Of a stretch of DNA of 64,000 nucleotides, positions 10,926-17,035 are shown in pieces (within the stretch, counting starts at the first letter, position 1; every line of letters starts with the position of its first letter). Origin of the DNA: Actinopolyspora alba (GTDB taxonomy: Bacteria > Actinomycetota > Actinomycetes > Mycobacteriales > Pseudonocardiaceae); NCBI RefSeq assembly GCF_900112765.1, contig NZ_FOMZ01000004.1, positions 111,446 to 175,445 on the forward strand. The letters run 5' to 3'. A model generated the notes under the pieces. The model saw only the letters and a list, made by a program, of their open reading frames with translations, was not told the DNA's origin and did no database searches. The position numbers and the translations under genes are program-made.

Positions 10926-11888
10926 TCACCGGTAGGCGGGTGGGCAGATCGTGTCGATCTCGTCGAGGTCGGCCTGGCTGGGCCGCCACTGTCCCGCCGA
11001 GGCGTTCGACTCGACCTGCTCCGGCGAGGTGGCGCCGCTGATCACCGACCCGACGGTGGGCTGCGCCGCCAGCCACCCGATCGCGGTGGCGATCATGGAG
11101 ATCTCGCGCTTCTCCGCGAACTCCCGCAGCCGCTCGATCCGTTCCCAGGGGGCGTCGGCCAGCAACCGCTCGCGACCGGACAGCCTGCTGCCCTCCGGCG
11201 GCTCCTGGCCCTGCTGGTACTTACCGGTGAGCAGCCCGTTCGCCAGCGGGAAGTACGGGATGAGCCCCACGCCGAACTTCGAGCAGGCCGGGATCACCTC
11301 GCGCTCGGCCTCGCGTTCCAGCAGCGAGTAGTGGATCTGGGCCGAAACCGGGCCGGTCGTCCCCCGGTGGGTGGAGGTCCACGACGCGTCGGCGGTCTGC
11401 CACCCCGCGAGATTGCAGTGACCCACGTACCGGATCTTGCCCTCCCGCACCAGGTCGTCCAGCACGGACAGCGTCTCGTCCAGCGGCGTCAGCGGATCGG
11501 CGCGGTGCAGCTGGTACAGGTCGATCCATTCGGTGTCCAACCGTCGCAGCGACGCCTCCACCGCGCGGCGCACGTAGCGGCGGGACCCCCGCGCCTCGAA
11601 GTCGGGGCCGTTGCTGCCCTGCATGTCCATCCCGAACTTCGTCGCGATGACGGCCCGATCACGATGTCCCCGCAGTGCTTGGCCGAGCAGCTCCTCGCTG
11701 CGTCCTCGCGGTGAGCCGTACACATCGGCCACGTCGAAGAATGTGATGCCCGAATCCAACGCGCGGTTGACCACGGCCTGTGCACCGCGCGGGGACTCGG
11801 TGGTCGTGCCCGGTCTGCCCAGGTTGTTGCACCCCAGGCCGACGGCGCTGACCACGAGACCGGAATCGCCCAGACGTCGCTGTTCCAC
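10926..11888 (-). CDS. Aldo/keto reductase
   Basis: A 320-residue TIM-barrel oxidoreductase with the catalytic tetrad at Asp52, Tyr57, Lys84 and His128 (motifs FFDVADVYGS, VIATKFG, LYQLH). The C-terminal NADPH-binding segment (GSVISGATSPEQVESN) is intact. It resembles the YajO/Tas-like AKR group, often aldehyde or ketone reductases with no assigned substrate. It is separated from the SDR upstream by a repeat element, so it is probably transcribed alone. Confidence 0.83.
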   Translation of the reverse strand: MEQRRLGDSGLVVSAVGLGCNNLGRPGTTTESPRGAQAVVNRALDSGITFFDVADVYGSPRGRSEELLGQALRGHRDRAVIATKFGMDMQGSNGPDFEARGSRRYVRRAVEASLRRLDTEWIDLYQLHRADPLTPLDETLSVLDDLVREGKIRYVGHCNLAGWQTADASWTSTHRGTTGPVSAQIHYSLLEREAEREVIPACSKFGVGLIPYFPLANGLLTGKYQQGQEPPEGSRLSGRERLLADAPWERIERLREFAEKREISMIATAIGWLAAQPTVGSVISGATSPEQVESNASAGQWRPSQADLDEIDTICPPAYR

Positions 11889-12042
11889 GAGATCCGACTC
11901 TAGCCCCGGCGCGATGCCGCGTCACGGGTTTCCCCGCCGTGACCCCCGGTCGCGGCAGCACGCGGCGAACCGCACTGACGAAGTCGGGATCGGGTACCAC
12001 TGCTTCGGGGCAGTGGGTGACGGCGCTCTTCCGTTGTAGCGG

Positions 12043-13396
12043 TCAGAGGCTGACGAGGAGCATGGTCCCCACGAAAACCACACCACTGACGACGAGCGTG
12101 ACCGCGGTGAAGCCCAGGATGTCGCGGATGCGCAGCCGGGCCATCGCGAGTAGGGGAAGCGCCCAGAACGGCTGGATCATGTTCGTCCATTGGTCGCCGT
12201 ACGCCACGCCCATGGTCACGACCGCGGGATCGACGCCGAGCTGTGAGCCCGCCTCCAGGAAGACCGGAGACTGGACCGCGAACTGTCCACCGCCGGAAGG
12301 GACGAAGAAGTTCACGATGCCGCCGGCGAGGAAGCTCCACAGGCCGAGCGTGGTCTCGTCGGAGATCGAGACGAAGAAGTCGGAGAAGATCGTGATGAGG
12401 CCGGTGGCGCTCATGATCCCGAGGATGCCCGCGTACAACGGGAACTGCAGCAGGACGTCGCCGACGTTCCTCGCGGCCTGGGCTCCGAGCCGACCCAGTT
12501 CGCGGGGTGAGTCGATCAACAGCAGAATCAGGCAGAGAAACGTCCAGTTGACGATGTTCAGCGTGAGGGAGAATCCTTCCTGGGCGAAGTAGATCACCAG
12601 GTAGGCCAGTAACAAGACGCCCATCGCGAGGGTGACCGCACGGGCGTTGTCGAGTCGCTCGGCCGGTGTGACGTCGGTTGTGGTCTCGATGAGACCGTTT
12701 TCCCGTTCCTCCGTCGTCCGGGCGTCTTCCGGGAATTCGATGATCCGCTCGTTGGAGCCCGGAGCCATCAGCATCATCGCGCCGACCACGACGAGCAGCG
12801 TCACGACGGCGGCGGTGATGTTCCACCAGGAGAAGATCGTCTCGGTGATCGGCAGCGGAGCACCGAGCTGGTCCTGGGCGAAGCTTCCCTCGGTGGCGGC
12901 GGCCAGCGGCCCAGACCCGGAATAGCCCATGTGCCACACGACGAACCCGGAGTAGCCCGCGGCCACCAGCAGGGGGTAGTGCAGGCGCATCCCGCGCTCA
13001 CGACCGACCCGCGCGACCTCGACGGAGAGCAGCGCCGCGACGACCAGGCCGAGCCCCCAGGTGAGGAGGGAGGCGGCGCCGGCGCACAAGGTCACGAAAC
13101 CGTACGCCCGCAGGGGTGTCCCGGGCACCCGCGCGAGTCGTACGAGCAGTCGGTGCACCGGTCCGGTGTGCGCCAGGAGATATCCCAGCAGCAGCACCAG
13201 GGCGATCTGGGTCATGAACTCGAGTAATCCGGTTAAGCCGTCCCCCCCAGGCGCGGAGCACCTCGACCGGGCCCGAGTCGGTCATACCCAGCGCCATCAG
13301 ACCAACGGCGATCGTGAGTACGACGGCGAAGATGAACGAGTTCGGCAGCCATCGCTCGACCATCGCCACGAACGGTCGCGAGAGGGTACGCAACAT
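12043..13396 (-). pseudogene. atoE: Short-chain fatty acid permease, AtoE family, frameshifted
   Basis: Two overlapping reading frames make one AtoE-type permease of about 450 residues. The N-terminal part starts at ATG 13396 (AGGTGAG 7 nt upstream) and reads to RAWGG; the C-terminal part resumes at GDGLTGLLEF and MTQIALVLLLGYLL and runs to 12043. The frame breaks inside a run of seven C on the plus strand (13242-13248, G7 in the coding strand). Deleting one G gives WGDGLTGLLEF, which matches the family pattern at this point. With the shift, translation loses most transmembrane helices. It may be a recent pseudogene, a phase-variable switch or a sequencing error. The family imports short-chain fatty acids such as butyrate or acetoacetate. 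Confidence 0.75.
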
Positions 13397-13741
13397 CGGG
13401 AAGCTCACCTTCGAAACGCGGGACGTCGAGAGATCCACCACACCCTAGAGGGGGCATCGCGCTGCAGGAACCCGTTGACAACGAACTTTGGACAGAGCCG
13501 AGGAATTGACGGCTCCCAACCGGAAGTGAAGCGGTCGTCCGTGCCAGGGCGGAGTGTTGACCCGCTCGACGGTGCGGGAGCGTCTCATGTGGCGTGTTCC
13601 GTAGCGGGTGAAGGCGGCGCCCAGGGCGAGAAGGGCGGCGGTAGGTTCCACGGCAGCAAGGTCCGGTGAGAGCACGGTACCGCGAAGCGAAGGGCCACCG
13701 GCGGGCCGAGCCGACAGGCCCTCCAGGATCGGAGTGATCGC

Positions 13742-15544
13742 ATGGGTAGCCCCACACGTCCCGAACTCGCGGGTACACACGGCATGGTCGCCTCGACGCA
13801 CTGGCTCGCCTCCGCCGCGGGCATGGCGGTGCTGGAGGACGACGGCAACGCCTTCGACGCCGCCGTGGCCGCCGGATTCGTGCTGCAGGTGGTCGAACCG
13901 CACCTCAACGGTCCCGGCGGCGAACTTCCCGCCCTGTTCGCCACGCCCGGCGGTCCCGTTCGCGCGCTCTGCGGCCAGGGGCCGGTACCCGCCGGTGCCA
14001 CTGTCGAACACTTCCGGGACGAACTGGGGCTCGAACTGATCCCGGGCTCCGGGCTGCTTCCGGCCACCGTGCCCGGCGCCTGGGACGCCTGGTTGCTGCT
14101 GCTGCGCGACTACGGCACCAAGTCGCTCGACGAGGTGCTGCGGTTCGCGATCGGATACGCCCGCGACGGGTTTCCCGTGGTCCCGAGGTTGTCCGAGACC
14201 ATCGCCACGGTGCGCGAGATGTTCCGCGTGCGCTGGCCGTCCTCCGCTCGGCTGTGGTTGCGCGACGGTGCCGCGCCCGGCGCGGGAACGAGGCTGCGCA
14301 ACCCGGTGCTGGCGCGAACGTGGCAACGGCTGCTGCGGGAGGGGAACGCGGCGGGAGGTGACCGGCGCGACCGCATCGACGCGGCTCGCCGGGCCTGGTC
14401 GCGGGGTTTCGTGGCCGAAGCGGTGGACCGGTTCGCGCGTGGTCCGGTCGCCGACAGCTCGGGACGCTCGCACGCGGGCGTGCTCACCGGGCAGGACATG
14501 GCCGACTACAGCGCCACCTACGAGGAGCCCGTGACGCTGCGGACCTCCGGCGACGGTCGGTTGGCGAAGTTCGGCGCGTGGTGCCAGGGGCCCGTGCTGC
14601 TGCAGCAGCTGCGGCTGCTGGAGCGGCTGCCGGTGGAGTACCGGGACGGGATCGCCACCGCGGAAACCGTCCACCACGCCGTGGAGGCGGCCAAACTCGC
14701 CTTCGCCGACCGGGAGGCCCACTACGGCGACTCGGCCGATCCCGGGGTGCTGTCGGAGTTGCTCGGTGCGGACTACACCGCCGCGCGTCGCGAACTGATC
14801 GGCGAGAACGCGGCCGAGACGCTGCGGCCGGGAAGCACCGCCGGTCACACCCCACGGTTGCCCGAGTACGTCTCCGAGGAGCGAGGGGCCGGACTCCCGC
14901 CCGATCCCAGCGGGGTGGGGCTGGGGGAGCCGACGGTCTCGCCGAACGGGGACAGCAAGGGGGACACCGTGCACCTCGATGTGGTCGACCGCTGGGGGAA
15001 CATGGTTTCGGCCACCCCCTCCGGGGGCTGGTTGCAGTCCTCGCCGGTGATCGAGGAACTGGGGTTCTGCCTGGGGACCCGTGCCCAGATGTGCTGGCTG
15101 CGCGAGGGACTGCCGAACTCGCTGGTTCCCGGCCGCAGGCCGCGCAGCACGCTCAGCCCCTCGCTGTTCACCAGGGGAGACGAGCCCGTGCTGGCCTTCG
15201 GCACGCCGGGCGGTGACCAGCAGGACCAGTGGCAGTTGTGCTTCTGGCTGGCCCATGTGCACGGTGGGCTGGATCTGCAGGCGGCCATCGACGCGCCCGC
15301 CTGGCACACCACAGCGTTTCCCGCCTCGTTCTATCCGCGCGGCTGGCAACCGCGCCGGGTGCTCGCCGAGTCCCGGCTCGGCGAGGCGACCTTCGAGCGG
15401 CTGCGGCGGCGTGGCCACGAGGTGACCGACGCGGGGCCCTGGGCGCTGGGCAGGCTCGCCGCGGTCGGCAGGGACCCCGAGACCGGAATGCTGCGGGGCG
15501 CAGCCAACGCGCGCGGTGCCCAGGGCTACGCCGCGGGGCGTTAG
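13742..15544 (+). CDS. Gamma-glutamyltransferase family protein
   Basis: A 600-residue Ntn-hydrolase of the GGT family. The autoprocessing nucleophile is probably Thr409 in KGDTVHLDVVD, aligned with the TTH motif of E. coli GGT. The small-subunit signature continues with GNMVSATPSGGW and PGRRPRSTLSPSL. Length fits a complete proenzyme. No signal peptide or lipobox is seen, although many GGTs are secreted, so this one may be cytoplasmic and act on another gamma-glutamyl or acyl amide substrate. It diverges from the broken permease across 345 bp in which I see no gene. An element A copy lies 28 nt past the stop. Confidence 0.82.
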   Translation: MGSPTRPELAGTHGMVASTHWLASAAGMAVLEDDGNAFDAAVAAGFVLQVVEPHLNGPGGELPALFATPGGPVRALCGQGPVPAGATVEHFRDELGLELIPGSGLLPATVPGAWDAWLLLLRDYGTKSLDEVLRFAIGYARDGFPVVPRLSETIATVREMFRVRWPSSARLWLRDGAAPGAGTRLRNPVLARTWQRLLREGNAAGGDRRDRIDAARRAWSRGFVAEAVDRFARGPVADSSGRSHAGVLTGQDMADYSATYEEPVTLRTSGDGRLAKFGAWCQGPVLLQQLRLLERLPVEYRDGIATAETVHHAVEAAKLAFADREAHYGDSADPGVLSELLGADYTAARRELIGENAAETLRPGSTAGHTPRLPEYVSEERGAGLPPDPSGVGLGEPTVSPNGDSKGDTVHLDVVDRWGNMVSATPSGGWLQSSPVIEELGFCLGTRAQMCWLREGLPNSLVPGRRPRSTLSPSLFTRGDEPVLAFGTPGGDQQDQWQLCFWLAHVHGGLDLQAAIDAPAWHTTAFPASFYPRGWQPRRVLAESRLGEATFERLRRRGHEVTDAGPWALGRLAAVGRDPETGMLRGAANARGAQGYAAGR

Positions 15545-15571
15545 CGACACCTCTGGTCGCCCCGGTTCGCG

Positions 15572-15593
15572 GCGATTTCGCGAGAAATCGACG
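15572..15593 (+). repeat. Element A, copy 3
   Basis: GATTTCGCGAGAAATCGACG type, 28 nt after the GGT stop and in the orientation of that gene. The gap 15545-15838 otherwise shows only copy 4. Confidence 0.8.
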
Positions 15594-15770
15594 CCGTGCC
15601 GGTGATGCTCGCCGCTTCGCCGCGAAGAACTCCGTGACCGAAGGCCTTTCGGCGTTCCAGCAGGGCAAGAAATCATTGGACGCCGTTTCCCGGCCGGGCT
15701 TACGGTTCTCACGTCCCGTTTTCAAGGTTTCCGGTTCCGGTGGGCTGCTTCGCGACGGCGCGGTGATTTC

Positions 15771-15800
15771 CCGCGAGATCGCCACCGCGCGAAATCACCG
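15771..15800. repeat. Element A-like inverted repeat, copy 4
   Basis: Perfect 10-bp inverted arms CGGTGATTTC and GAAATCACCG, extended by CGCG pairs. It resembles two half-copies of element A facing each other, and lies 39 nt upstream of the RtcB start. Confidence 0.6.
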
Positions 15801-15838
15801 CCGGAGATCGTCCAGTGTCCGTACAAGGGTGAAGTGTC

Positions 15839-17035
15839 GTGACGGATTTCCCCGTGCTGCTGTCCGGTACCCGCGCTCCCACGTTCATGTGGGCCACCGA
15901 GCACGATGTCGAGCCCGCGGTGCTGGACCAGCTGCGCAACATCGCGGCACTGCCGTGGGTGCACGGGGTGCGCGTCATGCCGGATGTGCACCTGGGCAAG
16001 GGCGCCACGGTCGGTTCGGTCATCGCCATGCGGGATGCCGTGTCCCCCGCCGCGGTGGGCGTGGACATCGGCTGTGGCATGGAAGGTGTCAAGACCTCGC
16101 TGCACGCCGACGACCTGCCCGCCGACCTCGGCGGTATCCGCACGAGCATCGAGCGTGCCGTTCCGGTGGGATTCCGCGCGCACGACGAGGCCGTCGATCC
16201 CGCGCGGCTGGGCCTGGACACCTCGGAGTGGCAGGACCTCTGGAGGCGCTTCGGAGAGCTGCACGGCGGAGTGAGTTCGCTGGAGAGCAAGGCGGGGAAG
16301 CAGCTCGGAACGCTCGGCGGCGGCAACCACTTCATCGAGGTCTGTCTGGACGAGCACGACGCCGTATGGCTCATGCTGCACAGCGGTTCCCGGCACATCG
16401 GCAACAGACTCGCCGAACAGCACATCGCCGAGGCCCGCGAACTGCCGCACAACCAGGACCTGCCCGACCGCGACCTCGCGGTTTTCGTCGCAGGCACGCC
16501 GCAGATGGCGGCCTACCGCAACGACCTGTTCTGGGCGCAGGAGTACGCGCGCGTCAACCGGCGGATCATGCTCGCCCTGACGATGCGCGCCCTGCGCGGC
16601 TGCTTCACCGGACGGCGGATCGAGTTCGACGAGCCGATCTCCTGCCACCACAACTACGTGGCGGAGGAGACCATCGACGGTCAGCCCATGCTGGTCACCC
16701 GCAAGGGCGCGATCCGGGCGGGGAGGGGCGACATGGGACTCATTCCCGGCTCGATGGGAACCGGTTCCTACGTGGTCCGCGGTCTGGGGTCGGACGACTC
16801 GTTCCAGTCGGCGGCGCACGGCGCCGGTCGCAGGATGAGCAGGAAGAAGGCCAAGAGGACGTTCGGTTCGCGGGACCTGCGGGAGCAGACATCGGGAATC
16901 GAGTGCCGCAAGGACGACGGGGTCCTCGACGAGATCCCGGGCGCCTACAAGGACATCGACTCCGTCATCGACGCGCAGACAGCGTTGGTGGAAGTGGTGG
17001 CCAAGTTGCGGCAGGTCGTTTGCGTGAAGGGGTGA
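15839..17035 (+). CDS. rtcB: RtcB-family RNA ligase
   Basis: A 398-residue RtcB homologue. The manganese-site signature VDIGCGMEG puts Asp76 and Cys79 in place, HLGKGATVGSV precedes it, GGGNHFIE follows in the middle, and the late HGAGRRMSR motif carries the histidine that is guanylylated in the family. RtcB joins 2',3'-cyclic phosphate and 5'-OH RNA ends using GTP, in tRNA or RNA repair. No RtcA or archease gene is visible nearby. GTG start preceded by AGGGTGAAG. The 3' end carries a truncated element B fused to element A. Confidence 0.9.
   Translation: MTDFPVLLSGTRAPTFMWATEHDVEPAVLDQLRNIAALPWVHGVRVMPDVHLGKGATVGSVIAMRDAVSPAAVGVDIGCGMEGVKTSLHADDLPADLGGIRTSIERAVPVGFRAHDEAVDPARLGLDTSEWQDLWRRFGELHGGVSSLESKAGKQLGTLGGGNHFIEVCLDEHDAVWLMLHSGSRHIGNRLAEQHIAEARELPHNQDLPDRDLAVFVAGTPQMAAYRNDLFWAQEYARVNRRIMLALTMRALRGCFTGRRIEFDEPISCHHNYVAEETIDGQPMLVTRKGAIRAGRGDMGLIPGSMGTGSYVVRGLGSDDSFQSAAHGAGRRMSRKKAKRTFGSRDLREQTSGIECRKDDGVLDEIPGAYKDIDSVIDAQTALVEVVAKLRQVVCVKG

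Follow-up and report, generated by a model that had tools for sequence, protein, structure and literature searches.

An apparently private one-base break at a poly-G run in an accessory PF02667 permease gene of Actinopolyspora alba

The closest known parallel to the break described here is glpK of M. tuberculosis, whose G7 tract is reported to have gained a base in numerous isolates (PMC6667613, PMC11898584). The actinobacterial repair enzyme NucS is described as unable to correct short indels, and DnaE proofreading has been suggested to remove most of them (PMC8228993). In a large survey of frameshifted prokaryote genes, one class of singletons, that is, of unclustered frameshifted genes, is expected to reflect sequencing errors and not true indel mutations (PMC3711429).

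The locus considered here lies in the window, a stretch of 64,000 nt from Actinopolyspora alba contig NZ_FOMZ01000004.1 that was analysed as a whole and to which all coordinates refer unless another contig is named. It contains a PF02667 permease gene, to which the PF02667 / TIGR00366 short-chain fatty acid transporters, labelled AtoE, come closest. In the AtoE-type uptake arrangement, the AtoD/AtoA CoA-transferase genes adjoin the permease. As in this family, the two halves of the gene match the profile consecutively and a WG[DE]G-type motif stands at the break; in contrast to it, the frame is broken and no CoA-transferase gene is adjacent.

The locus is no new kind of system and parallels glpK. 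Both involve a one-base poly-G expansion in the 5′ half of a carbon-source gene of an actinobacterium, predicted to be inactivating. Nevertheless, glpK as reported goes from G7 to G8 in many isolates and comes with phenotype data, while the permease differs as G7 from G6, in one genome and in an accessory gene (PMC6667613, PMC11898584). It also resembles the surveyed singletons, as there described, in having an unconserved frame transition at a homopolymer within a conserved family (PMC3711429).

One gene in two frames

The plus strand at 13240-13249 reads g, t, seven c and a, which fixes the limits of the run given in Table 1. In the coding (minus) strand these are seven G, directly preceded by the T of a TGG codon. 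The permease starts at an ATG (13396-13394) preceded by GAAGGTGAG, and the reading from 13399 to 13246 ends in EVLRAW. After the run the family frame resumes one base off and continues through to 12043. The upstream ORF proceeds out of frame to a TGA at 13000-12998, with a predicted product of 132 aa by arithmetic, about 51 of them in the family frame; the downstream ORF spans 12043-13215.

Table 1. Features of the permease locus and of the dispersed repeat in the window
Feature	Position	Strand	Remarks
Aldo/keto reductase, left neighbour of the permease stretch	10926..11888	-	
Permease-bearing stretch	11965..13632		no match in G004 and G005
Rest of permease, other frame	12043..13241	-	first ATG 13215; PF02667 63-452, E 6.2e-102
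Out-of-frame extension of N-terminal ORF	12998..13241	-	ends in TGA
G7 homopolymer (C7 on +), frame-change site	13242..13248	-	G6 in A. mzabensis
N-terminal part of permease, own frame up to G7 run	13249..13396	-	PF02667 1-51
Gamma-glutamyltranspeptidase, right neighbour	13742..15544	+	
ATTTCGCGAGAAAT repeat	5830, 5895, 15575, 26054, 26098, 27414, 31850, 41021, 41073, 51594, 52900, 59527		

Pfam assigns both pieces to SCFA_trans, over the segments in Table 1, and a search of the profile against the genomic DNA gives two stretches covering positions 1-51 and 51-452. Because the halves cover consecutive positions of the profile, they represent one gene that is split once, and the idea of two separate genes was rejected on the same grounds. 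The pieces score 342.4 and 33.1 bits against a curated PF02667 cut-off of 27, which places them in the family, although a single open frame of about 450 aa is lacking, as the frame changes at the run. With TIGR00366 the larger piece reaches 334.9 and the smaller 29.6 bits, below the cut-off of 575.75, each piece being scored singly. By profile search this is the sole PF02667 gene of the genome, and no second intact copy was found with PF02667. Searches with the larger piece found no PDB sequence match and no PHROGs match.

The initial annotation had placed a frameshift at this run, between two halves of a permease, and sequence, Pfam and the alignment with A. mzabensis all confirm it. As some 85-90% of the protein would be out of frame, no working transporter would be expected from the G7 form. 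Re-initiation at ATG 13215 was thought unlikely, as the upstream ORF extends 218 bases beyond this ATG, which is preceded by no more than a weak GGA. Separately, two TTA codons fall within four codons at 13225-13236, shortly after the G run, in what is a high-GC actinomycete gene. In Streptomyces, TTA codons are a regulatory feature.

The initial annotation also called the gene an AtoE-type permease. Membership in PF02667 is borne out, but the ato-type neighbourhood is absent: the four PF01144 (CoA-transferase) matches of the genome lie on contigs C26 and C34, while the permease is on C30. Consequently, the AtoE label exceeds the evidence.

Reading frame, tract length and gene history in relatives

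In A. mzabensis DSM 45460 the permease is one open frame of 466 codons with a G6 tract. It is 98% identical to that of A. alba over the C-terminal 390 residues, and the sole gap between the two genes falls inside the run, G7 versus G6. Its intact frame reads RAWGDGLTGLLEFMTQ at the break, which supports the earlier proposal that WGDGLTGLLEF is the family form.

A wider comparison covered 107 loci, 27 from genus and family searches and 80 from genome contigs (the best 80 of 473 matches). Subtracting the window itself and one same-organism duplicate leaves 105 distinct relatives. In 104 of these (contig matches, best 80 of 473) the N-terminal half shares the frame of the remaining part; for the other, L016, the match was weak and misplaced, and this relative was not counted as read. 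Upstream of the point that aligns with the downstream ATG, at least 58 codons are open in all 105 relatives (again with the best 80 of 473 contig matches), compared with 22 in the window. The possibility that all relatives carry the same shift, which the initial annotation gave as a refuting condition, is therefore not borne out, given the intact G6 gene of A. mzabensis and the single frame of the 104. Since the N-terminal half keeps the frame in these relatives, the frameshift appears private to the A. alba genome and not programmed, and a programmed frameshift, which should be conserved, was rejected.

The same conservation bears on recoding, in which transcriptional slippage or ribosomal frameshifting on the G7 run would yield some full-length permease. 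In its favour, the frame changes at the run itself and the half downstream of it is little decayed. Nevertheless, the arrangement lacks conservation, as a single frame was read in 104 of the 105 relatives (best 80 of 473 contig matches), and the survey cited above describes transcriptional slippage chiefly at runs of A or T (PMC3711429). Recoding is thus very improbable.

The W-G column of the motif could be read in 98 of the 107 rows. Among these (contig matches, best 80 of 473), the G run after the T is four long in 94, five in one and six in three, and the three G6 rows represent two organisms, two of the rows being A. mzabensis and one Ornithinicoccus halotolerans. The tract is due to the GGG codon of the motif glycine, a rare choice in the family, found in 4 of the 98 rows (best 80 of 473 contig matches), A. 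mzabensis and O. halotolerans included; a GGG glycine between TGG and GAC makes G6. The repeat is not kept over the family, as the run is four long in 94 of the 98 rows (best 80 of 473 contig matches).

These counts are relevant to selected phase variation, that is, a reversible and adaptive alternation between G6 (on) and G7 (off), as in glpK of M. tuberculosis. A slippage-prone repeat, G7, does stand at the frame change; the kind of tract and the direction of change are those reported for the glpK G7 expansion (PMC6667613), a poly-G tract of seven bases has been termed highly mutagenic in mycobacteria (PMC11898584), and the survey counts surface proteins, transporters among them, as typical phase-variable proteins (PMC3711429). 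The GGG codon shared with A. mzabensis and O. halotolerans also fits. By contrast, the evidence comes from one genome, which represents the species by a single allele, the tract is short before its expansion, and G4 in 94 of 98 W-G rows (best 80 of 473 contig matches) means that there is no family-wide contingency tract. Phase variation is therefore an unlikely cause. A narrower form is more doubtful still, in which the tract would be a contingency switch specific to a lineage of salt-living actinomycetes, controlling the uptake of carboxylates as a non-pathogen parallel of glpK. Here, the rare GGG codon, which O. halotolerans also has, would make the gene switchable, and the rate would be high where indel repair is lacking.

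The distribution of the gene points to a late arrival. Only 2 of 10 Actinopolyspora genomes, A. alba included, have the permease, and it is missing from 8 of the 9 others, while gamma-glutamyltranspeptidase is present in all 10, A. alba included. In four genomes (G004, G005, G009 and G002) the junction is empty, with reductase and transpeptidase close together and no permease between them; in the remaining four without permease, the flanks are matched in part or not at all. The transpeptidase DNA is 95.6% identical to the window in G004, 96.2% in G005 and 94.4% in A. mzabensis, and the aldo/keto reductase 97.9% in G004 and 98.7% in G005, both of which are without permease. Between A. alba and A. 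mzabensis, permease dS is 0.07 in the C-terminal half and 0.052 in the N-terminal half (49 codons), below the 0.14-0.215 of five neighbour genes. Loss from G004 and G005 alone would be insufficient, as it would leave this low dS unexplained. Recombination or transfer between lineages would explain both the low dS and the absence from the closer G004 and G005, and the permease was probably acquired or exchanged late.

Its nearest relatives outside the genus are in Ornithinicoccus (76%), Janibacter (71%) and Mobilicoccus (67-69%), among the best 80 of 473 matches. As these values exceed the best other matches in 297 genomes from the family of Actinopolyspora (58-61%), they suggest a source outside the family. 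One further record (L062), labelled Vibrio cholerae 35D, contains an actinobacterial-type permease with 62% identity, which suggests that this assembly is contaminated.

With regard to selection, dN/dS is 0.136 over 390 codons in the C-terminal half and 0.366 over 49 codons in the N-terminal half, the latter from 2 + 2 changes only. The five neighbour genes have lower values (0.036-0.127), so that some earlier relaxation of selection on the permease may have taken place. Nevertheless, given a C-terminal half that is 98% identical at a dN/dS of 0.136, the break looks recent. An old pseudogene was thought unlikely, in view of this downstream ratio, somewhat above that of the neighbours, and of the single gap in the gene.

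Homopolymers and one-base gaps in the assembly

The initial annotation had regarded the run as a plausible slippage site, and this holds: no other G/C run of at least seven occurs in 215 kb of the contig. About 64 such runs are predicted by a first-order Markov model based on that sequence, which takes no account of codon structure. These 215 kb have 376 G/C runs of five, 50 of six and one of seven, where this model expects 546 of five, 159 of six, 46 of seven and 18.5 of eight or more. Since the observed counts are below expectation, long G/C runs are avoided in this stretch, and the sole one present is the frameshift.

Genome-wide, 82 overlapping G7 matches collapse into 39 runs of at least seven. 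A frame test of the 38 others was too noisy to rely on: it missed the break at 13242-13248 itself, putting its right side on the other strand. In this same noisy test, five of the 38 (L156, L164, L166, L175 and L183) keep the same frame on either side, within a single coding-like ORF. Two others (L152 and L169), which change phase on the same strand, were inspected, and no clear split gene was found at either.

Some far longer tracts were also seen. A C18 tract (L185 1195-1212; G000:C38:108141-108158) lies between genes that, from their translations, are presumably rimM-like and trmD-like; in G005 and G004 the C-rich stretch at this site is shorter and interrupted, and the tract is either an assembly artefact or a variable tract. 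A G20 tract (L154 1192-1211; G000:C20:303549-303568) occurs elsewhere in the A. alba genome; four relatives match only to about 25-35 bases before it and have no G/C run above six in the fetched stretch. The assembly thus holds G/C tracts of 18 and 20 at lengths not seen in the relatives compared. From G007:C6:443600 onwards, the A. mzabensis assembly has at least 54 consecutive Gs, possibly a sequencing artefact.

The contig also contains a dispersed repeat with the core ATTTCGCGAGAAAT, with 12 copies in the window, 22 in the 215 kb analysed of the contig and 18 in 290 kb of A. mzabensis. Several copies are paired, about 44-74 bases apart.

The 215 kb of the window's contig were aligned with A. 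mzabensis, about 173 kb of them in blocks, and ORFs were paired at an identity of at least 75%, with simple gene calls that may miss genes. Of 151 A. mzabensis ORFs, 129 had a partner, and in 15 of these a frame change or stop was flagged; the reverse direction flagged 7 of 128 comparisons, which gives 22 flags with the permease included. Pfam matched 19 of the 21 flags besides the permease and left two without a match. In the 19, either the lasting frame change or stop precedes the domain, as expected when an ORF is called too far upstream, or the whole gene is in one frame. Inspection covered the DNA of 12 flags and the stop position of 10, with one gene in both; a gene in neither set (G007 14856-16193) matches over residues 3-445 in one frame. 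An MFS gene (C30:85522-86973) has a compensating pair of one-base gaps inside its domain and uncompensated changes before it, and one flagged gene spans a scaffold gap. Among the 22 flagged comparisons, only the permease was found split inside a Pfam domain.

There are 218 one-base gaps in the alignment, 22 of them in runs of at least four with well-matched flanks; six of these runs are longer and 16 shorter in A. alba, so that added bases are not in excess. One of the 22, at window 19088 (G5 versus G6), may precede the true start, as it falls 43 bases from the beginning of a long ORF of A. mzabensis. In the aligned regions, 44 G/C runs are of exactly six: 19 are identical in A. mzabensis, 21 have substitutions and four have gaps, one of the four being a plain G6 versus G5 near an ORF start.

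A sequencing or assembly error, with a true tract of G6 and an intact permease, is possible on this evidence, if on the doubtful side. In its favour, the change is of exactly one base and falls in the only G/C run of at least seven in 215 kb, the rest of the permease is under purifying selection, 104 of 105 relatives (best 80 of 473 contig matches) are intact at the break, the assembly is a draft of 42 contigs with 250 N about 75 kb from the break, and errors are the explanation given for the class of singletons mentioned at the outset. Against it stand the G6 runs, of which just four of 44 are gapped, the lack of an excess of added bases and the lack of any split Pfam domain but that of the permease. 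However, this comparison makes an assembly with errors throughout less likely, but does not bear on an isolated error. A real mutation is more likely than an error.

Probable cause and significance

The explanation that we favour, with moderate confidence, is a recent slippage from G6 to G7, of the kind that NucS repair reportedly leaves, which would have disabled a dispensable, late-acquired permease. Slipped-strand mispairing during replication would add one G to the G6 tract, and NucS, an enzyme found in the A. alba genome, would leave the short indel uncorrected, the slippage event itself being proposed by analogy. The suggested removal of most short indels by DnaE proofreading speaks against this reading (PMC8228993). 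Translation from the ATG at 13396 would then keep to the family frame for only about 51 residues, with termination at 12998. The change to G7 may also revert to G6.

The initial annotation had offered pseudogenisation, phase variation and assembly error without ranking them. Pseudogenisation can now be favoured, as the gene is absent from eight of nine other Actinopolyspora genomes and was probably acquired or exchanged late, while phase variation is without direct support. A literature search for frameshifted atoE-type genes or frameshifts in Actinopolyspora found nothing to the point.

In effect, this is an ordinary private one-base break in an accessory permease gene. If the sequence is in error, the annotation ought to show an intact permease. 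If the mutation is real, it adds another instance in which a carbon-uptake gene of a NucS-bearing actinobacterium is inactivated by a short poly-G tract. Either way, it is a minor point on one accessory gene.
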